A stretch of DNA of 64,000 nt from a virus. Under the pieces are notes generated by a model that was not told the origin of the DNA, searched no databases, and was given only the letters and a program-made list of their open reading frames with translations. A program made the translations under genes and the position numbers. Position 1 is the first letter of the stretch; every line of letters starts with the position of its first letter. Shown in pieces: positions 16,225 to 24,032 of the stretch. The stretch is from positions 1 through 64,000 of the IMG/VR virus record IMGVR_UViG_3300035703_000080. The stretch is one strand, 5' to 3'.

Positions 16225-16641
16225 TTACTTGGTGGAGGGTTTGCGGACAGAGACATCGAACTCCGTGTCGGAGTTCAGCCCCGGCGGCATCAGCGCGGGG
16301 TTCTCTTCCAAGAACTTCGCCATATTGCCTTGGTGAATACGTCGCTCAAGCAGGTCCACCGCTTCCTGCTCAACAACGAACGTCTTGAAAGATTCCCAGT
16401 CCTGCGTGTAGAACCGAGTCTTCTCAGACAAGACCACGGTGCCGTGGTCGGTGCGAACGGAACGCGAGCCCTGCGAGAGCATCATGTCCTTGATCGCGTT
16501 CTTGACTTCTTTCTGCTGCTCTTTCAGCGCGTCGATCTTGGCGTCGTATTCAGCCTCGATCTCCGACAGCTTGGTGCGCATCTTCATGTAGATACGCACG
16601 AGCTTATCCAGAGGGATGACCTCCGGTGTGGGTGCTTCCAT
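16225..16641 (-). CDS. Coiled-coil hypothetical protein of the replication operon
   Basis: A 138-residue protein with a helical, heptad-like stretch at about 20-55 (MKMRTKLSEIEAEYDAKIDA) and a short beta-like segment TVVLSEKTRFYT. Such proteins commonly sit next to phage SSB genes, but no function is established that I can name. It begins at an ATG with GGAG upstream, 55 bases after the helicase stop, behind a good promoter (16687-16714), and ends where the SSB-like gene's Shine-Dalgarno begins, so the two are co-translated. Confidence 0.7.
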   Translation of the reverse strand: MEAPTPEVIPLDKLVRIYMKMRTKLSEIEAEYDAKIDALKEQQKEVKNAIKDMMLSQGSRSVRTDHGTVVLSEKTRFYTQDWESFKTFVVEQEAVDLLERRIHQGNMAKFLEENPALMPPGLNSDTEFDVSVRKPSTK

Positions 16642-16686
16642 GCTTACTCCTTCAACGCAACCCGCTGAACTGCGGGTGTGTCTAAC

Positions 16687-16714
16687 ATTGTACAGGTCAC
16701 TTCTTGGCCGTCAA
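16687..16714 (-). promoter_or_regulatory. Sigma70-like leftward promoter
   Basis: On the minus strand TTGACG (16709-16714), a 16-base spacer and TACAAT (16687-16692). It lies across the 3' end of the helicase gene and would drive the 138-residue gene, the SSB-like gene and the primase-helicase. A short CCCGC/GCGGG hairpin follows in the leader. Confidence 0.6.
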
Positions 16715-19141
16715 CCCCCTTTCCGCGATCTCAGACTTGAACAGATCGACCAGCAGCCGGTTGTCGTCAACCTTGCCCGCCAGGGCGGCGAACATCTTCT
16801 TCTCGACGGGCGAGCCTTGGATGTGGACGACGGTGACCTTGTCGCTGGTCTGCCCCTTGCGGTCGGCCCGGGCGCAGGCCTGGACGTACTGCTCGACGCT
16901 CATCAGCGGGCCGAAGAACACGACGGTGTCCGCCGCAGTCAGCGTGATCCCGTGCGCAGCCGCCTGGGGCTGCATGACCAGCACGCGCGGATCGGGCAGG
17001 GTCTGGAAGCGCTTGATGATGTCGCCTCGCTTGGTGGCCGTCACCCCGCCGTGGATCTCCTCGCACGCCACCCCGCGCTTGTTGAGGAACACCGAGATCG
17101 TCTCGATGGCCGCGCGGAACAGCGCGAACACGATGACCTTGCGGTCGGTCTCCTCCAGCACCTCCAGCAGCACGTTGAGCCGAGGCGTGGCGTCGAACTC
17201 CACCGTCTCCCCGTTGTCCGAGTAAGCCACGCCGCAACTGATCTGGAGCAGCTTGTTGAGCGCTGCCGCTGCGTTCACTGCCGTGATCGTCTCGCCTGCC
17301 GCCTGCGCCACCATCGCCGTCTTCAGCGCGTTGTAGTACTTGGCCTGCTGCGGGGTCAGCGGCACCTCTCGCGTCATCGTCACGACGGGCGGTAGGTCCA
17401 GGCACTGCTCCTTGGTGTAGCGGATGGCAGGCTGCAACGCCCGGTGCACGCGGTCGGCGGCGTCGGCCTTGGGCGCCCACTTGAACATGGTGACCTTGTT
17501 CATCACCGTGTCGCGCCACGCGGTCTGGAAGGCGGGCACGCCCTTGGGGTTGACGAGCTTGGCCAGCCCGTAGGCGTCCACGGGCGACTGCGCCGCAGGC
17601 GTGCCGGTCATCATCCAGAGATAGGTGTTGGATGTCAGCAGCGAGTTGAGCACCTTCCACCGCTTGGTCTGCGGGTTCTTGTAGGCGTTGCAGTTGTGTA
17701 CTACCCAGTGATCCCCAACAAGGTAGTTAGGTGCTCCTTCAACTTCGAGGTTGAAGACATCGACACCGCTTGGACATTCGATATACGAAACACTTTCCAC
17801 CCAAGCGTCGCCAGTTTCTCTTCCTTCTTGCGATCCTGCTCTTGCCGTATTTTCGCCGTATGGCTGTTGCCGTCCACTTCCAACCCCACCATCTGGTCGG
17901 GCCACGCGAAGTCGAGCTTGTAGTTCGTAGGAAAGCCGGGTTGCCTCCCACCCAACGCTATTGGGTAGTTCCATACCCACCCCGCAGGCAAGACCTCGGA
18001 AATCAGTTGTTCGGCAGGCGTCATGCCCCTGCCGTTGCCGCCCTGTACTTTCGGTTTGTGCCATCGCGCCTTCAGTGCCGCCGACAGTTTCGCCCGATGC
18101 TCCGCTGTTTTCGGGCCTGTAGACTTGCCCCGTTGCTCTGGCGGCATTTTGTTGAAGTAGCTGGCCCCCGGATTCCGAGAGTGATACCTCTTCCGCGCGC
18201 AGGATTTCGAGCAGGTCAGGCCAAGCGGGTGGTTCTTTGCCATACCCCAAAGTACCCGGTGCCGCATATGGCGGAATTCCTGCCCGCAGGTATGACAGCT
18301 CAACACCAGATATGAGCCTTCTTCCCGTAAGATTTTTGGCGCACACCCATCCGGCGTCTGTGAAGAAGGGGTGCTCGGGGGTGCATCGCAGTGTTTTTTC
18401 GTTTCCAAGACGGACCTCGACAAGTCGCGTAGCGGTATTGCGTACAAGACGTTTTATACGTGCTACGCCGTTAGAAGTCAAGACCTTGTCCCCGGGCTGA
18501 AGCTGCTCGATTGAGTGTCGCCCCAGCGGCGTGCCCACGAGCGTGCCTGCCACAAAGCACTCATCGACGATCACGAGGTCGAAGCGCCCGTCGTTCTTCA
18601 CCTCGGTCGAGATCAGGTCGAGCCCCTCGTAGTTGGTGATGACGATGTCATGCCCTTCCTGCACGGCCTCTATGCGGCGCGATGCTTGCGCATGGTGGGC
18701 CACGATGGCGCTGCGGTGAATGACGGAGTTGCCGATGTCTTGCATCCACGCGCTGTGCATGATCGACATGGGGCACAGGATGAGCACGCGCCGCACATCC
18801 CCGCGCGTCATCAGGTAGTCCGCCGCCCACAGCGCCGACAGCGTTTTGCCCGTCCCCGGCTCCGACAGCACGAACGCCCGCCGGTTGAGCGTGAGGAAGC
18901 TCGCTGTCTCCTGCTGGTGCGCCATCGGCTTGAAGCGCCCGGGCCAGTCGTAGCGCCCGTAGATGGGAGAGGGGACGTTGCGCACGCCCAGGTTGCGCAG
19001 GACCCGCGCTTCGTCCAAGCCCCAGTAGACCGCGATCTCGTAGCCCCCCGGGATCGGGAAGGCCTTGTGCTTGGGGATGATGCTGTACCGTTGCGGGTGC
19101 TGTGTCCTGAACAACAGGATCTTGTTTTCTACGATTTGCAC
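16697..19141 (-). CDS. SNF2/DEAD-type helicase interrupted by an intein
   Basis: An 814-residue precursor; removing the intein (residues 195-483) gives a 525-residue superfamily 2 helicase. Seen motifs: Walker A EPGTGKT (94-100), motif II VIVDE (190-194) with the intein inserted directly after the DE, extein resuming as CNAYKN, motif III MMTGTPA, and a C-terminal QACARADRKGQ motif VI. These belong to SNF2/UvsW-like ATP-driven DNA translocases used in phage replication or recombination. Activity must depend on splicing, since motif II is split. The start is a GTG at 19141 with GGAG five bases upstream. It sits 13 bases after an HNH gene. Confidence 0.88.
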   Translation of the reverse strand: MQIVENKILLFRTQHPQRYSIIPKHKAFPIPGGYEIAVYWGLDEARVLRNLGVRNVPSPIYGRYDWPGRFKPMAHQQETASFLTLNRRAFVLSEPGTGKTLSALWAADYLMTRGDVRRVLILCPMSIMHSAWMQDIGNSVIHRSAIVAHHAQASRRIEAVQEGHDIVITNYEGLDLISTEVKNDGRFDLVIVDECFVAGTLVGTPLGRHSIEQLQPGDKVLTSNGVARIKRLVRNTATRLVEVRLGNEKTLRCTPEHPFFTDAGWVCAKNLTGRRLISGVELSYLRAGIPPYAAPGTLGYGKEPPAWPDLLEILRAEEVSLSESGGQLLQQNAARATGQVYRPENSGASGETVGGTEGAMAQTESTGRQRQGHDACRTTDFRGLACGVGMELPNSVGWEATRLSYELQARLRVARPDGGVGSGRQQPYGENTARAGSQEGRETGDAWVESVSYIECPSGVDVFNLEVEGAPNYLVGDHWVVHNCNAYKNPQTKRWKVLNSLLTSNTYLWMMTGTPAAQSPVDAYGLAKLVNPKGVPAFQTAWRDTVMNKVTMFKWAPKADAADRVHRALQPAIRYTKEQCLDLPPVVTMTREVPLTPQQAKYYNALKTAMVAQAAGETITAVNAAAALNKLLQISCGVAYSDNGETVEFDATPRLNVLLEVLEETDRKVIVFALFRAAIETISVFLNKRGVACEEIHGGVTATKRGDIIKRFQTLPDPRVLVMQPQAAAHGITLTAADTVVFFGPLMSVEQYVQACARADRKGQTSDKVTVVHIQGSPVEKKMFAALAGKVDDNRLLVDLFKSEIAERGLTAKK
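17693..18559 (-). other. Intein in helicase motif II (289 residues)
   Basis: Class 1 splicing signature: Cys1 in block A (CFVAGT, coded from 18559), block B TPEHPFF, block F GVDVFNLEVEGAPNYLVG, and block G ending VVHN followed by a +1 Cys in the extein. Together these predict removal of 289 residues to join VIVDE to CNAYKN. Between blocks B and F the intein frame has no recognisable endonuclease, only low-complexity Gly/Arg/Glu/Ala/Gln-rich sequence, yet it stays free of stops; the +1 frame of the same DNA encodes an EDxHD endonuclease. Confidence 0.9.
17701..18447 (-). CDS. EDxHD (Vsr-type) homing endonuclease nested out of frame in the helicase intein
   Basis: An open frame of up to 248 residues in the +1 frame of the intein. 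Numbering from the TTG at 18447: a zinc ribbon with C51/C54 and C79/C83, a NUMOD3-like helix (KTAEHRAKLSAALKARW, 113-129), then a Vsr-like nuclease fold with E146, D179 (KLDFAWP), E190-V-D192, H196 and D205, ending in a strand GWKVFRIS. E, D, H, D in this order match the EDxHD homing endonuclease family whose prototype is I-Bth0305I. The likelier start is the GTG at 18306, after AAGAAGG and just past intein block B. It ends at TAG 17701-17703, inside the intein C-terminal block. It would cut intein-less helicase alleles to copy the intein. Confidence 0.85.
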   Translation of the reverse strand: MYAIPLRDLSRSVLETKKHCDAPPSTPSSQTPDGCAPKILREEGSYLVLSCHTCGQEFRHMRHRVLWGMAKNHPLGLTCSKSCARKRYHSRNPGASYFNKMPPEQRGKSTGPKTAEHRAKLSAALKARWHKPKVQGGNGRGMTPAEQLISEVLPAGWVWNYPIALGGRQPGFPTNYKLDFAWPDQMVGLEVDGNSHTAKIRQEQDRKKEEKLATLGWKVFRISNVQAVSMSSTSKLKEHLTTLLGITG

Positions 19142-19154
19142 ATTTGCTCCTGCG

Positions 19155-19415
19155 TCACTTCATCGAGTGATCCTTGTTGCGCTTGAACGTCCGGTTCTTG
19201 CTTGCCGGTACAACCGACAAGTTCCCCGGGGATGTCTTGCCGCCCTTGCTCAGCGGCGTCTTGTGGTGCACGTCTTTCCCATCTCCTTTCTGGACTTTGC
19301 CTGCGGCCATCATCTGACGCCGCGCCTTGTTCCGTTCAGCGCGAGCCTTCTTGGCTTTCTCTGTCTGGTCGTAGGCGGGATAGGTATCTCGATCGTTCAT
19401 GTCCTTGTACGGCAT
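19155..19415 (-). CDS. Small HNH nuclease-like protein
   Basis: An 86-residue basic protein whose C-terminal half carries an HNH-type pattern: VHHKTPLSKGGKTSPGNLSV followed by an asparagine (SKNR). The N-terminal half is a Lys/Arg-rich helix without the Cys pairs often found in HNH enzymes, so catalytic competence is uncertain. ATG with GGAGG four bases upstream. It sits between the Cas4-like nuclease and the intein-bearing helicase; it could be a homing endonuclease beside its target or a processing nuclease. Confidence 0.7.
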   Translation of the reverse strand: MPYKDMNDRDTYPAYDQTEKAKKARAERNKARRQMMAAGKVQKGDGKDVHHKTPLSKGGKTSPGNLSVVPASKNRTFKRNKDHSMK

Positions 19416-19423
19416 AAGCCCTC

Positions 19424-20092
19424 CTAATGTTCAGGATGAAACACGCAAGTCTTGACCGGGCACCACCCGCACAGCGGGCTCTGCGACGGGTTCCACACGT
19501 CGTTGGCGTGCGCTGCTTCGAGCTTCGCCACCCGCTCTCGGTACTTCCACCACGCCGCCTCGGCCTCCTCACGCTCCATGCGGTGCTTGAACATGCTGCC
19601 CTTGACGATGAACATCAGGGCGGAGGACACGCGCCGGATGTGGGGGAAGTGCGTGAAGACCATCAGCGACATCAGCATGAGCTGGTCTTTGTCCGGGTAC
19701 TTGTCGTTACCCGTTTTCCAGTCCACGACCCGCGCCGTCAGGTTGTCGTCGTTGATGATCAGCAGGTCTGCGATGCCCCGGACCCAGCGGTCCTTGGCGT
19801 CGAACGCGCAGGGCCTGAGGTCCGCCGTGACGCCCATCTCATGCTCGAACAGCTTGCGCCCAGGGTGCGCCAGCACCGCGTCCACAACAGGCTGGAAGCC
19901 CGCCAGTGCCGGGGGCAATGGCGTGTTGTCCTTGCCGTACAGCTCGATGGCCTTGTGTACGTCCTTGCCGTAGATGGTGTGCTTGGTGTCCTTGAACGGG
20001 AACTTCTTGAGCACCTTGACTTCGTGGTAGCGCCGTGCGCAACCCTCGAAATCCTTGAGCCCGCTGTGCGACCATGTGATGGGAGTTGTCAT
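19424..20092 (-). CDS. Cas4/RecB-like PD-(D/E)XK nuclease
   Basis: A 222-residue protein with the RecB-type nuclease layout: an early WSHSGLKDFEGCARRY motif with Cys18, then HKAIE, the catalytic IADLLIIN...ARVVDWKTG segment (D and the DWK triad), a QLMLMSLMV helix (QxxxY-like motif without the Tyr), and a C-terminal CGWCPVKTC cluster. The four cysteines suggest an iron-sulphur cluster as in Cas4/AddB-like exonucleases. In phage these enzymes process DNA ends in recombination or replication. Its start overlaps the stop of the metallopeptidase gene (ATGA), so the two are coupled. Confidence 0.82.
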   Translation of the reverse strand: MTTPITWSHSGLKDFEGCARRYHEVKVLKKFPFKDTKHTIYGKDVHKAIELYGKDNTPLPPALAGFQPVVDAVLAHPGRKLFEHEMGVTADLRPCAFDAKDRWVRGIADLLIINDDNLTARVVDWKTGNDKYPDKDQLMLMSLMVFTHFPHIRRVSSALMFIVKGSMFKHRMEREEAEAAWWKYRERVAKLEAAHANDVWNPSQSPLCGWCPVKTCVFHPEH

Positions 20093-20391
20093 CAGAACTT
20101 AGCCGAGAGGATGGCTTTGTTGAGCAGGCCGGAGAACTGGGTCACGAACGCTTCGTCGTTGTGCAGCGGACTGCCCATCTCGTGAAGAATGGCATGCGTC
20201 AGCTCATGCCAGAACGTGTCGTAAAGCTCCTCGCGCTTGAACGCGCGGCCCGTGAAGTTGCTGTGCGTGACGACGTCGATGTACTTGGCGTCGTAGTTGA
20301 CCTCACCAACCGTGAATCGCTTCCTCGGCTTGGCGCGCTGGTTGATGATGTACAGCTTCTTGCCGACCTTGATTTGCTTTGGTATCTGCAT
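20092..20391 (-). CDS. SprT/ImmA-like zinc metallopeptidase
   Basis: A 99-residue protein with a clear HExxH zinc-binding motif (WHELTHAILHEMG, about residues 62-74) and a downstream NDEAFV acidic segment that can supply the third ligand. Size and layout fit minimal gluzincin/SprT-like phage proteins; the substrate is unknown. It overlaps the preceding 94-residue gene by 89 bases and the following nuclease gene by the ATGA junction. Confidence 0.75.
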   Translation of the reverse strand: MQIPKQIKVGKKLYIINQRAKPRKRFTVGEVNYDAKYIDVVTHSNFTGRAFKREELYDTFWHELTHAILHEMGSPLHNDEAFVTQFSGLLNKAILSAKF

Positions 20392-20587
20392 ACAGTGCTT
20401 TCTCCTTTTCGTCCATCAACTTGAGCACATGCTGAAGCATGCGCGCTTCTGCCCCGAGTTCAATCGCCGCGTCTCGGGCTTCTGAGTACCTGTGCTCTAG
20501 GCACAGGTCGTGTGTGCGCTTGAGCATCTGCTCCATGCGAATCATGGGCGCGGCGTAATCAACGATGTCAGTCTTTTGCAAGTCCAT
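20303..20587 (-). CDS. Small helical phage protein
   Basis: A 94-residue protein from the ATG at 20587, which lies 20 bases inside the end of the DNA polymerase gene. The middle (MIRMEQMLKRTHDLCLEHRY... EARDAAIELGAEARMLQHVL) is a pair of amphipathic helices seen in many small phage replication-region proteins of unknown role. The last 30 codons overlap the metallopeptidase gene in another frame and read as low complexity. Confidence 0.65.
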   Translation of the reverse strand: MDLQKTDIVDYAAPMIRMEQMLKRTHDLCLEHRYSEARDAAIELGAEARMLQHVLKLMDEKEKALYADTKANQGRQEAVHHQPARQAEEAIHGW

Positions 20588-23447
20588 AGCGTTTGTGCAC
20601 GCCCCCGCTTGCCGATAGCGGAATCCCCGGCAAGTATGGAGGCTCAATAGTCATCTGCGCCAAGACCCATGTCTTGGCGTCATCCGCTTCGCTCTCCGGC
20701 GCGACTGCGATGGCCTCGTCATGCACCGTGCCCGCCACAGGGTAGCGTTTGTCGATGCGTAGCATGCCGTCGGTCATCACGATCCGTGCGGTGCCTTGGA
20801 CACAGTTGTGTACTATGAAAGGGCCTGTGGCTCCTTTGACAACGAATCTGTTTCTCGGGCCACAGTTGACAATATCGTACACCTGTTGCTGAACGAGGGC
20901 GGCAGCGTCAGCAGTTCCACGGGCCAGCCCGATTTGAGTCGGTTGTACAACGTAGTTCTCCCTATGCCCGTAGCCGCGCTTAGCGCAGGTACGTCTACCG
21001 CCCGAACTGTTGTGCGTTTGTTCATAGAATTCGTCTGCCGAGACACCCACCGACAGTTCTCCGGCGAGTACGGGCCGTTGTTGTCCATACGATCCAAGTC
21101 CAAGCCTCGCGCATACGTAGCGCCCATGTCTTCCCAAAAAGCCGCGAAGCTGTTGCGCCATCTCTCGCAAACGTACACCCCCCTTGCGCCATAGTTTTTG
21201 TACGCTGCTTCCGCCTTGCTGTAACACCGCGCATGCATGTTGCGCCAAACGATATAGGCGGGGTGCCGGCTCATACCGTGCGTGGTGTTCTTCTCCCCTA
21301 TCAGCCGCCGCGTCATACAACCGCAGTTCGGAATCCCCCCGCGTTTGGTTTCTTTCGTTACGTCTGCGCCGAGCTTCACTGTCTGCGCACCGCATTCGCA
21401 GCGGAAGCGCCATTTCCACGACTTCCCGGTGGACGCCTCCGGGTGCAACGCCGTCAACATGCCGAAGGTCTGGCCGGAAAGGTTCTTGAACTTGTGATGC
21501 GGCTTCCCATCCATGATCTGTGAGAACGAGGTGTTCCGGGGTAATGAGGACGCCGTCCACGGTAACACAACCCTGAACTCCGGTCAAGATCTTCCCCGCA
21601 TGCCGCACGAACTCCACCCCGTCGTGCACCAAGTCTTGCGGTTCGACGCTCTCTATGGGCACCCAGCCTCGCGCAGTAAGCACGGGCGTTCCTGCGGCCA
21701 AGCAGTTGTTGGTGATCTTCCCGGCGTACAGCTTCGACCGCTTCTTGCCGTCTGCGTACGTCCACTGGATGCGCCGCCCGTCGCCTTCGGGCTTGAGGTC
21801 AGGATACCGCAAGCTCATGCCGTTTGGCAAGACGATCTCCTCCTTGCGGAAGGTCAGGCACTTGTGGCGGTACTCGTTGCCCTTGAACAGGCTGTGGGTG
21901 ATGAGGTTCTGGAAGAGTTCCCACAGACGCACGACGGGCTGCGCCGTGGCGCGGTACCGGGTGATGATGGCCTGAGCGGCGAGGCAGTGGATGAGCAGCT
22001 CCTGCGCCGTGCAGGAGTGCGGGATGGCCTCCATCGCCTTGACGAGATGCTCGGAGCCGATGAAGACGTCGACGTCGCGTGACGTCACGCCGAGCTGCCG
22101 CGCTTCTGCTTTTGTGTACCTTTTAGGTGGTGCACCGAGGAAACCCGTCAATAATTGTGCCGCGAAACTTGCCCACCCCAATTGGTACCCGCACCCAAGC
22201 AAAGCAGACTTTGCACTTTGTCTCTCCACCGGATGAGAGTCTTTAGTCATACCGGGTATATTGAACATGCCCGCGCCGAATGTGGCGTAGGGGTCGCCGC
22301 CACCCTTGAAGATGTCGAGCAGCGTGCCGTAGTCGGCCAGCCACGCCAGCACGCGCGGCTCGATCTGGGACAGGTCTCCCACCACCAGCACGTGGCCCTC
22401 GGGGGCGGTGATGGCCTTGCGCAGGAAGCTCCCGCGCTTGAGGTTCTGGAGGTTGATCTGACTGCCCTTGCTGGCCGTGTACCGGCCCGTGGCGGCGCCG
22501 TAGTAGTTGACCGGGAAGGGCAGCGGCCCGCGCCGCGAGATGTCGAGGAACCGTTGCGCACGGGTGCGCTGGAGCGTGGACTTGACCATCAGCCGCGCCT
22601 CGCACAGCAGGGCGACGGCCTCGTTGTCGGAGTTCATCATCGCCTGGAACAGCGCGTCGTTCTTGGCGAACGCGAACGTCTTCTCCCCGGTGGTCTTGCT
22701 GACCTTCGTCGGCGGCTCGACGCCCATGCCCTCCAGCACGGCGGCGAACTTGTCGTTGGACGCCAGCGCCGCCTCCTCCACGCCCAGGCGTGTGAGCAGC
22801 TCCTCCCGTGCTTGGCGCTCTTCCTCGATGGCGGGCTCCAGCATCGCCCCGTCCAGCACCAGCAGCGGGCGCGTGTACATGCGCAGGGTCAGGTCGATCA
22901 GGCGCAGCTCCTTGGACGGGTACCCGGGCAGCATGCGTAGGAAGATCTGCTCGCACAGCCACGTGTCGTGCTTGCAGTAGTCGGCCAGCGTCTGCTCGAC
23001 GTCGAAGGGCAGCTCGTCGAGGATGTTCTCGGACGGGCTGAGCCCGTCTCCCTTGGGCGGCAGACCGTAGCGCTCGGCCAGCACCTTCAGGCTGTTGCCC
23101 ACCTCGACGCCGTGCAGGGCGCGGCCCATGCTGAGCGTGTCGAACATGAAGCACGGCTGCACGCCGTAGTGCCACGACAGGATGCTGCCGTCGAACTGGG
23201 TGTTCTGGCAGACGAGCGCGGTACGCGTCCAGTCGATGCTGTCCGCCCAGTCTTGGATGCCGTTGCGGCGGACCCAGACGGCCTTGTTGTCCGTCCCGAC
23301 CTCCTTCCACGACAGGCCCCACGCCTTGAAGCGCGGGTCGCGCAGGTACTCCTCGTTGGTCTGGCACGAGAACCCGAGCTTGACCTCGCGCCCCCAGGAC
23401 GTCTCGAAGTCCACCGCCAGTATGCGGTCGAATGGCGGCTTGCTCAA
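20568..23447 (-). CDS. Family A DNA polymerase interrupted by an intein
   Basis: A 959-residue precursor; excision of residues 582-881 leaves a 659-residue polymerase. The 3'-5' exonuclease shows AVDFET (D13, E15), CQNTQFD and YCKHD motifs. Polymerase motif A is VVGDLSQIEPR near 356, motif B is RQSAKSALLGCGYQLG near 407, and motif C is VHDE near 908, after the intein. The intein splits the conserved N-N/C-V-Q-G-x-A-R segment between motifs B and C, so polymerase activity needs splicing. It is the replicative enzyme of the phage, working with the primase-helicase and SSB-like protein. ATG overlaps the upstream stop (ATGA). Confidence 0.93.
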   Translation of the reverse strand: MSKPPFDRILAVDFETSWGREVKLGFSCQTNEEYLRDPRFKAWGLSWKEVGTDNKAVWVRRNGIQDWADSIDWTRTALVCQNTQFDGSILSWHYGVQPCFMFDTLSMGRALHGVEVGNSLKVLAERYGLPPKGDGLSPSENILDELPFDVEQTLADYCKHDTWLCEQIFLRMLPGYPSKELRLIDLTLRMYTRPLLVLDGAMLEPAIEEERQAREELLTRLGVEEAALASNDKFAAVLEGMGVEPPTKVSKTTGEKTFAFAKNDALFQAMMNSDNEAVALLCEARLMVKSTLQRTRAQRFLDISRRGPLPFPVNYYGAATGRYTASKGSQINLQNLKRGSFLRKAITAPEGHVLVVGDLSQIEPRVLAWLADYGTLLDIFKGGGDPYATFGAGMFNIPGMTKDSHPVERQSAKSALLGCGYQLGWASFAAQLLTGFLGAPPKRYTKAEARQLGVTSRDVDVFIGSEHLVKAMEAIPHSCTAQELLIHCLAAQAIITRYRATAQPVVRLWELFQNLITHSLFKGNEYRHKCLTFRKEEIVLPNGMSLRYPDLKPEGDGRRIQWTYADGKKRSKLYAGKITNNCLAAGTPVLTARGWVPIESVEPQDLVHDGVEFVRHAGKILTGVQGCVTVDGVLITPEHLVLTDHGWEAASQVQEPFRPDLRHVDGVAPGGVHREVVEMALPLRMRCADSEARRRRNERNQTRGDSELRLYDAAADRGEEHHARYEPAPRLYRLAQHACAVLQQGGSSVQKLWRKGGVRLREMAQQLRGFLGRHGRYVCARLGLGSYGQQRPVLAGELSVGVSADEFYEQTHNSSGGRRTCAKRGYGHRENYVVQPTQIGLARGTADAAALVQQQVYDIVNCGPRNRFVVKGATGPFIVHNCVQGTARIVMTDGMLRIDKRYPVAGTVHDEAIAVAPESEADDAKTWVLAQMTIEPPYLPGIPLSASGGVHKRYGLAKD
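20805..21704 (-). other. Intein in the DNA polymerase (300 residues)
   Basis: Block A CLAAGTPVLT with Cys1 coded at 21702-21704, block B TPEHLVLTDHGW, block F VYDIVNCGPRNRFVVKG, block G FIVHN and a +1 Cys (CVQGTAR). Splicing joins KITNN to CVQGT. The frame between blocks B and F is Arg/Gly/Gln/Ala-rich without a domain, and remains stop-free, while the +1 frame of the same DNA encodes an HNH endonuclease. Confidence 0.9.
20813..21514 (-). CDS. HNH homing endonuclease nested out of frame in the polymerase intein
   Basis: A 233-residue protein from ATG 21514 (the frame is open to a GTG at 21568). It begins with the FKNLSGQTFGMLTAL motif typical of phage HNH endonucleases, then Cys pairs (RCECG, NCGC), THGMSRHPAYIVWRNMHARC, GVYVCERWRN and the HNH-type core LDRMDNNGPYSPENCRW, followed by a helix-turn-helix (ALSAATGIGRTTLYNRLKSG). 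It occupies the +1 frame of the intein and ends at TAG 20813-20815 in intein block G. The ATG lies within intein block B; no strong Shine-Dalgarno is visible, so initiation may be weak or coupled. A free-standing homologue is at 50366. Confidence 0.85.
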   Translation of the reverse strand: MDGKPHHKFKNLSGQTFGMLTALHPEASTGKSWKWRFRCECGAQTVKLGADVTKETKRGGIPNCGCMTRRLIGEKNTTHGMSRHPAYIVWRNMHARCYSKAEAAYKNYGARGVYVCERWRNSFAAFWEDMGATYARGLDLDRMDNNGPYSPENCRWVSRQTNSMNKRTTVRAVDVPALSAATGIGRTTLYNRLKSGWPVELLTLPPSFSNRCTILSTVARETDSLSKEPQALS

Positions 23448-23740
23448 TGCACTTCTCCGTTTTGCGCAGCGGTGGCGGCGTCTTGTTGGAACGAGTCCAG
23501 AAACGAGTCATGCGCTGTGCGCAACAGCACGAGCACGTCGAGGTGCGAGGCGTTGACGCCGTGAACGCGCAGCGTCTCCTCGTCCTCCGTCCAGACGAAA
23601 ACCCCGTGGCTGCGCGGGGAAGTGAAGCACGTGAGCAGCGACGTCATCGTGTCCAGCAGTGCCGTGCGTACCTCCGGGTCAAGACTGTTGGCCTTCAAGA
23701 GGAGTTGCTTGGCGTTATTCAGTAGGGTTTCAGTGTCCAT
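23444..23740 (-). CDS. 98-residue hypothetical protein upstream of DNA polymerase
   Basis: No domain is recognised. The N-terminus is helical (LLNNAKQLLLKANSLDPEV), the middle has a beta-like FVWTEDEETLRVHG, and the end is acidic/Gln-rich. It overlaps the VRR-NUC gene by 11 bases upstream and the polymerase by ATGA downstream, so it is translated with the replication genes. Confidence 0.65.
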   Translation of the reverse strand: MDTETLLNNAKQLLLKANSLDPEVRTALLDTMTSLLTCFTSPRSHGVFVWTEDEETLRVHGVNASHLDVLVLLRTAHDSFLDSFQQDAATAAQNGEVH

Positions 23741-24032
23741 GTTTGATGCTCCTGAGCGTGTCGATGAGTAAGTTGATCGTGTCTTCGCGCACGACTAGCG
23801 TTGTGCCCCCTGCTGCGGATATGGCTGCAAGCTCTTTGTCTTGCAGCGCGGTTGTCTTGTTGAAGCCCGCTTTGCACTCGATGCCGATGAACTTGCCGTT
23901 GAGGCATGCGATGATGTCCGGGACGCCCGAGCGTCCGTAACCGCCCATGACGGGGAAGAAATGATATGCGCCGTATGTCTTCAACACAGCAACGCACATG
24001 TCCTTGACGATTTTCTCTGGTGTCTTTGCCAT
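23730..24032 (-). CDS. VRR-NUC family nuclease
   Basis: A 100-residue protein that is almost entirely a VRR-NUC domain (PD-(D/E)XK fold): GRSGVPDIIACLNGKFIGIE with catalytic D and E, followed by CKAG (the K of ExK) and a Q-x-x-E-like LQDKELAAI helix. Stand-alone phage VRR-NUC proteins are predicted structure-specific nucleases such as Holliday-junction resolvases. It is the first gene after the duplicated structured element at 24051-24393, which forms its leader. Confidence 0.85.
   Translation of the reverse strand: MAKTPEKIVKDMCVAVLKTYGAYHFFPVMGGYGRSGVPDIIACLNGKFIGIECKAGFNKTTALQDKELAAISAAGGTTLVVREDTINLLIDTLRSIKHGH

Follow-up and report, generated by a model that had tools for sequence, protein, structure and literature searches.

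A putative homing endonuclease gene overprinted on the intein of a phage helicase

Described inteins and the closest known systems

Fractured genes with split inteins and EDxHD endonucleases (gp41-1 type) were reportedly described by Dassa et al. 2009. In this class, the endonuclease gene has been reported between the intein halves. The window analyzed here, a 64,000-nucleotide stretch of viral DNA (IMG/VR record IMGVR_UViG_3300035703_000080, positions 1 to 64,000), contains a helicase intein with a Hint domain related to that of gp41-1, as its profile matches include the gp41-1 intein (6qaz, E=8.5e-20) and the bacterial intein-like domain 2lwy. In the gp41-1 loci, however, a stop ends IntN after 88 aa, and IntC follows as its own ORF at a distance of 0.4-1.9 kb, with no fixed frame relation. 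We considered these loci as overprinted relatives and rejected them, because their IntN and IntC are on separate ORFs without overprinting. The EDxHD homing endonuclease I-Bth0305I (PDB 3r3p) is the best structural match of the helicase-intein nuclease, but it is encoded in a phage group I intron, whereas window positions 16500-24000 gave no Rfam match to any intron family up to E=1.

Intein endonucleases are described in reviews as in-frame fusions (PMC3943268). Bifunctional inteins of the PI-SceI type, with LAGLIDADG or HNH in frame, resemble the window element in having a splicing domain and a homing endonuclease in one mobile insert. They differ in that their endonuclease is fused in frame (PMC3943268), while that of the window is predicted to be a separate protein from another frame.

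Two precedents for out-of-frame endonucleases limit the statement of the initial annotation that it knew of no described case. ShiLan is an out-of-frame HNH endonuclease in phage methylase insertions without splicing domains (Arsenault, Gosselin and Gogarten 2025, PMC11855218). Like the helicase element, it has a homing-type endonuclease out of frame, an insertion that is stop-free in the host frame, and a patchy distribution (PMC11855218). Unlike the helicase element, which is a complete Hint intein with an EDxHD/Vsr-fold nuclease, it has no splicing domain, is not an intein by its authors' tests, and encodes an HNH enzyme. The helicase element thus does not qualify as ShiLan-type, as a splicing domain is present and the nuclease is not HNH. 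In APSE-1 (NC_000935), an HNH ORF, P46, is annotated inside the DNA polymerase P45 CDS in the +1 frame, and it is homologous to the second element of the window described below. P46 is annotated as an ORF only, and the GenBank record states no link to an intein or to overprinting. For inteins themselves, we found no description of overprinted endonucleases in the open-access literature. Two further sources named in the ShiLan paper, a preprint about non-canonical architectures of inteins and, on overlapping frames, Gorbalenya 1998 (PMC11855218), are outside that scope, and priority for the bare idea remains open.

A helicase intein with a nuclease in the +1 frame

The initial annotation proposed that a helicase precursor in the window carries an intein with normal splicing blocks. 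Our analysis agrees. The insert is 867 nt long, and the precursor reads ...VDE/CFVAGT...TPEHPFF...VFNLEVEGAPNYLVGDHWVVHN/CNAYK (slashes mark the intein boundaries), with Cys1, the TPEH of block B, and the VVHN/C end intact. The Hint and intein Pfam matches fall in the helicase frame, and the Hint fold is supported by Pfam, NCBIfam, and PDB profile matches. The class 1 intein residues C1, H63, H288, and N289 are invariant in 46 inteins, T60 is nearly so, and the +1 extein residue is C or S. In the AlphaFold model, the two Hint halves (residues 1-90 and 250-289) have a pLDDT of 91-97, and the linker between them (residues 124-249), which is the overprinted part, is disordered with a pLDDT of 25-45. 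No in-frame endonuclease was found in the helicase intein, as the nuclease of each scored locus lies in +1 and the helicase-frame linker is predicted to be disordered. A split-intein layout, with IntN and IntC on separate ORFs, was not found either, and every scored locus has a single continuous ORF. Directly upstream of the helicase, at positions 19155-19415 on the minus strand, there is a small 86-aa HNH-like protein (phrog_4590, unknown function) without a Pfam match.

Table 1 Features of the window and of related loci. Slashes mark intein boundaries; positions are those of the window unless a locus is named.
Feature	Position or loci	Strand	Basis or remark
SF2/SNF2-type helicase precursor ORF, 814 aa, open through intein	16697-19141	-	Pfam SNF2-rel_dom and Helicase_C
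Intein, 289 aa, in helicase motif II, DE/C...HN/C	17693-18559	-	Hint profile matches and AlphaFold
N-terminal splicing region IntN, ~85 aa, blocks A and B	18305-18559	-	
C-terminal splicing region IntC, ~39 aa, blocks F and G; dual coding with nuclease C-terminus	17693-17809	-	
Insertion site DE/C; GACGAA/GCC (DE/A) in empty alleles	18557-18562	-	
Putative overprinted homing endonuclease, +1 frame, 201 aa from candidate GTG 18306; stop codon 17703-17701	17701-18306	-	
Zinc ribbon CxxC...CxxxC of nuclease	18199-18297	-	Four Cys invariant, 56 sequences
Vsr-like/EDxHD catalytic domain of nuclease	17752-18021	-	Foldseek and profile search
AAGAAGG, a candidate Shine-Dalgarno that precedes GTG 18306 by 10 nt	18317-18323	-	Conserved only in part among relatives
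Family A DNA polymerase precursor ORF, 959 aa, host of the second intein	20568-23447	-	
Second intein, 300 aa, NN/C...VHN/C	20805-21704	-	Missing from near relatives
Second putative overprinted endonuclease, HNH/His-Me type (DRMDNNGPYSPENCRW), +1, start at ATG 21514; frame stop-free from 21583	20813-21514	-	
HNH-type overprinted phage inteins, +2, mostly large terminases	L272, L280-L282, L284, L286, L289-L291, L293, L296-L298, L303-L306, L309, L312, L313, L315; isolates L316, L317, L319		
APSE-1 P45 and P46	L399, 514-3495 and 2768-3190		Public annotation; HNH ORF overlapping polymerase in +1

The proposal that the +1 frame of the same DNA encodes a nuclease also held. The ORF at 17701-18447 contains no stop codon, and the frame is open from 18447 and beyond; it ends 8 nt short of the intein end. 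In the predicted product, a zinc ribbon is accompanied by a Vsr-like catalytic domain and by a conserved stretch, H-P-x(3)-GGNG, and DUF559 exceeds the Pfam cut-off. The catalytic residues E146, D179, H196, and D205 are at the positions first given for them, whereas the suggested NUMOD3-like helix is not confirmed, with no Pfam match. Invariant residues in 56 relatives (201-aa numbering) are C4, C7, C32, C36, D132, E143, H149, and D158. The D, H, and D of the EDxHD set are invariant in these relatives, and its first position is E in 32 and Q in 24 of them. The AlphaFold model, based on 51 aligned nucleases, has a pLDDT of 83. Its best PDB fold by Foldseek is 3r3p (probability 1.00, TM-score by target 0.54-0.61, although the E-value is only 4e-3), followed by 3hrl; the profile search gave 3hrl at E=1e-9 and 3r3p at E=0.04. 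In 42 of 63 non-redundant loci, as in the polymerase intein of the window, 8 nt separate the nuclease stop codon from the end of the intein. In the helicase intein of the window this stop is TAG, formed within the codons of the conserved VVHN read in +1.

An IMG/VR scan with the nuclease alignment gave 80 loci. The scored set comprised the scan loci, isolates, the window, and earlier loci, and both intein halves could be scored in 81. The openness of the helicase frame played no part in choosing these loci. In all 81, both intein halves are in one open ORF and the nuclease is in +1. The 81 include phages CP-T1, MR14, and phi673, and the arrangement is likewise present in isolated Vibrio phages, a Verrucomicrobium genome contig, and a planctomycete contig. 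When nuclease codons were shuffled synonymously, ~420 helicase-frame stops were expected in the 63 non-redundant loci, and none was observed. For the window locus alone, 5.6 stops were expected, with P(no stop) = 0.00065. Thus the stop-free second frame is beyond chance. The reading of the initial annotation, that splicing element and endonuclease are two proteins in overlapping frames with a linker kept free of stops, is supported.

Codon-position rates were estimated as changes per site among 15 ungapped close relatives. At helicase codon positions 1, 2, and 3, the rates were 1.07, 0.60, and 3.64 before the overlap, position 3 being the fastest, versus 3.18, 1.51, and 1.77 within it, where the fast position 1 is nuclease position 3. 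Where IntC and the nuclease overlap, they were 1.72, 1.40, and 2.00, with no fast position matching either frame. A second search was seeded with a single IntN query and not with the nuclease, and it found a +1 nuclease in every complete motif-II helicase intein. In no scored homologue is the nuclease in frame, and none pairs an intact motif-II intein with a broken nuclease, the observation named at the outset as refuting. At the level of sequence, dual coding is confirmed as real, conserved, and recurrent. Across loci, the distances of IntN and nuclease correlate only weakly (0.25), those of nuclease and extein at 0.48 and those of IntN and extein at 0.25; IntN is short, and this weak result is not taken as support. 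Joint descent of IntN and the nuclease is therefore not shown for the whole family. In L099, the planctomycete contig, the intein is a few residues downstream (DEAHHA/C) with the same +1 nuclease, a shifted insertion site.

Two trivial origins of such an arrangement can be weighed here. A sequencing or assembly indel that split an ordinary in-frame bifunctional intein has no support beyond the in-frame fusion that is expected of intein endonucleases (PMC3943268). The identical +1 relation recurs in every scored locus, including independently sequenced isolates, and one indel alone would interrupt the helicase frame, yet this frame is open; the explanation is refuted by these loci. A chance opening of the second frame through high GC content, or a frame that no longer functions, gains something from the many long spurious ORFs in the GC-rich window. 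Either is refuted by the homology and the invariant catalytic and zinc residues across phages, the confident fold, and the third-position drift of the nuclease frame. The 63 non-redundant loci range from 29 to 63% GC, and those of 29-45% GC share the same structure.

Overprinted inteins in polymerase and other genes

The window contains a second intein, in a family A DNA polymerase, again with a putative endonuclease in +1 (Table 1). This intein and its nuclease are unrelated to those of the helicase. When its nuclease codons were shuffled, 7.2 host-frame stops were expected, and none of 5000 shuffles was stop-free. Compared with L322, host positions 1, 2, and 3 have 2, 4, and 14 differences before the overlap and 61, 18, and 24 within it, which means that the fast position switches. 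This nuclease has relatives overprinted in +1 at 31 loci, whose host genes are polymerases and SNF2-type helicases. For in-frame versions of the His-Me nuclease, three long own-frame ORFs were checked, and none had an intein on either side. L036 and L037 contain a second, different overprinted intein in the helicase (LLQIS/C...VHN/CG), with a DRIDNNG-type nuclease in +1.

The IntN search also led to inteins in other genes, mostly large terminases, with HNH_3 nucleases in +2. A long +2 ORF is present in 21 non-redundant loci, most of them with an HNH motif. The terminase form is found in isolates, namely Tetrasphaera phage TJE1, Acinetobacter phage Highwayman, and a Rhodobacteraceae phage. In Acinetobacter phage BP10 (L318, 2495-3136), a related HNH is a free gene beside an intein-free terminase. 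The same search gave HNH in +1 in L300 and L301, and among the other-gene inteins EDxHD is in +1 in L269-L271, L273, L278, and L279; endonuclease-free inteins and in-frame LAGLIDADG-like inteins were recovered as well. The overprinted nucleases are thus of unrelated types: EDxHD in +1, HNH_3 in +2 (terminases), HNH in +1, and His-Me DRxDNNG in +1 (PolA and SNF2 helicases). The second window intein and the terminase inteins with +2 HNH indicate that overprinting is a recurrent intein architecture.

Expression, mobility and alternative explanations

The initial annotation suggested that the nuclease is made by internal initiation at GTG 18306, following AAGAAGG. The mode is the best supported one, but it is only inferred, and the particular codon is not confirmed, as GTG 18306 is present in only 12 of 18 close relatives. 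In the window clade, the candidates are GTG 18306, TTG 18303, or an upstream TTG, and the start codon is not strictly conserved. In CP-T1, MR14, and other clades, GAGG is found 7-10 nt before an ATG that is 2-5 codons ahead of the first zinc Cys. In 11 of 62 loci, an in-frame stop closes the nuclease frame 2-9 codons before that Cys. Two free-standing relatives begin at the same point as the overprinted nucleases, L080 (3358-3999) directly upstream of an intein-free helicase and L085 (4782-5435) adjoining a terminase-like gene. Taken together, these observations make internal initiation inside the helicase mRNA most likely, although the exact start in the window is unsettled. Start-site statistics are suggestive only, because ATG before the zinc ribbon is enriched in the nuclease frame (30 versus 10.4 expected) and in the host frame too (28 versus 7.7), and the Shine-Dalgarno energy at candidate starts is only slightly better than background. 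The free-standing relatives, including L318 of BP10, are possible ancestors or escapees.

All scored inteins from the first scan are located at motif II of helicase-like genes, at DE/C or DE/S. Most close relatives of the window helicase read DE/ANAYKN and have no intein. The insert is absent from L111, which has 98.1% DNA identity around the site, and from L106, and the insertion in the window is exact. L111 reads GTCGACGAA/GCCAACGCC, against GTCGATGAG/intein/TGCAACGCC in the window; apart from the insert, the changed bases therefore fall within a few nt of the site, a pattern as after recent homing. The polymerase insert is absent from L403-L405, relatives of 98-99% identity in which GTC replaces TGT at the +1 codon. 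L403 and L405 come from the same contigs as L111 and L106, relatives that therefore lack both inteins. Between the window and L001, the inteins have identities of 0.80 and 0.87, versus 0.66 and 0.69 for the exteins, and in the L021-L023 pair the inteins are likewise more alike than the exteins. L119 has the DEC codon of the intein type but no intein, perhaps a scar of precise intein loss.

In our view, this is very probably a mobile intein with a homing endonuclease gene that is overprinted and not fused, so that one DNA yields a splicing protein and a free endonuclease. Points that weigh against this view are the start codon that varies within the clade, the weak Shine-Dalgarno signal, the Q at the first EDxHD position in 24 of 56 relatives, and the weak correlation of IntN and nuclease distances. 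The sequences establish the dual coding and its conservation, the fold assignment, the splicing residues, and the empty alleles with exact insertion, whereas splicing, internal initiation, cleavage, and homing are inferred, without protein-level or activity data. The helicase frame would provide the Hint domain, its two parts (residues 1-90 and 250-289) joined by an unstructured linker, and the intein would splice out of helicase motif II, with DEC preserved. The +1 frame would provide a zinc-ribbon EDxHD/Vsr-fold nuclease as a protein of its own, whose translation most likely begins shortly ahead of the zinc ribbon. This nuclease may cut the motif-II site of insert-free helicase genes, and break repair would then copy the whole insert into the cut gene.

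Two other accounts concern the product and its role. Programmed ribosomal frameshifting from the helicase frame would give an N-extein-IntN-nuclease fusion and no free protein. A shifted ribosome could enter the +1 frame in the window, since this frame is free of stops from intein offset 106 onwards, far ahead of the zinc ribbon, but the stops shortly before the first zinc Cys, the Shine-Dalgarno and ATG exactly at that point in several clades, and the same start in the free-standing L080 and L085 make this account unlikely. The nuclease might also be produced but now act otherwise, for instance to exclude competing phages or to control the helicase, with homing in the past. We regard this as improbable, since presence and absence between near-identical phages are exact, recent, and site-specific at two loci, even though the free-standing relatives are neighbours of helicase or terminase genes that lack inteins, an arrangement shared with exclusion-type homing endonucleases.

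Beyond the overprinted homing intein of this helicase, overprinting is probably a general third way of building mobile inteins, the others being in-frame fusion and forms that are split or have no endonuclease. It would have arisen repeatedly, each time with an unrelated nuclease, and two such elements can be present in one phage. The nuclease would be freed from the splicing protein while the two genes stay tied, and one stop in the linker could yield a fractured gene with a split intein, making overprinting a simple route to split inteins. In the standard view, an endonuclease intein is one polypeptide with two activities; here, two predicted proteins share one stretch of DNA in two frames. 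The arrangement is conserved over a wide range of phages and was missed by annotation, in which the whole ORF is called helicase, polymerase, or terminase. This suggests that some inteins scored as endonuclease-free may hide an endonuclease in another frame. The apparently recent natural homing events at two loci provide material for experiments, and the loci add a large and replicated collection of long overlapping genes on one strand, in which the origin and translation of such genes can be studied.
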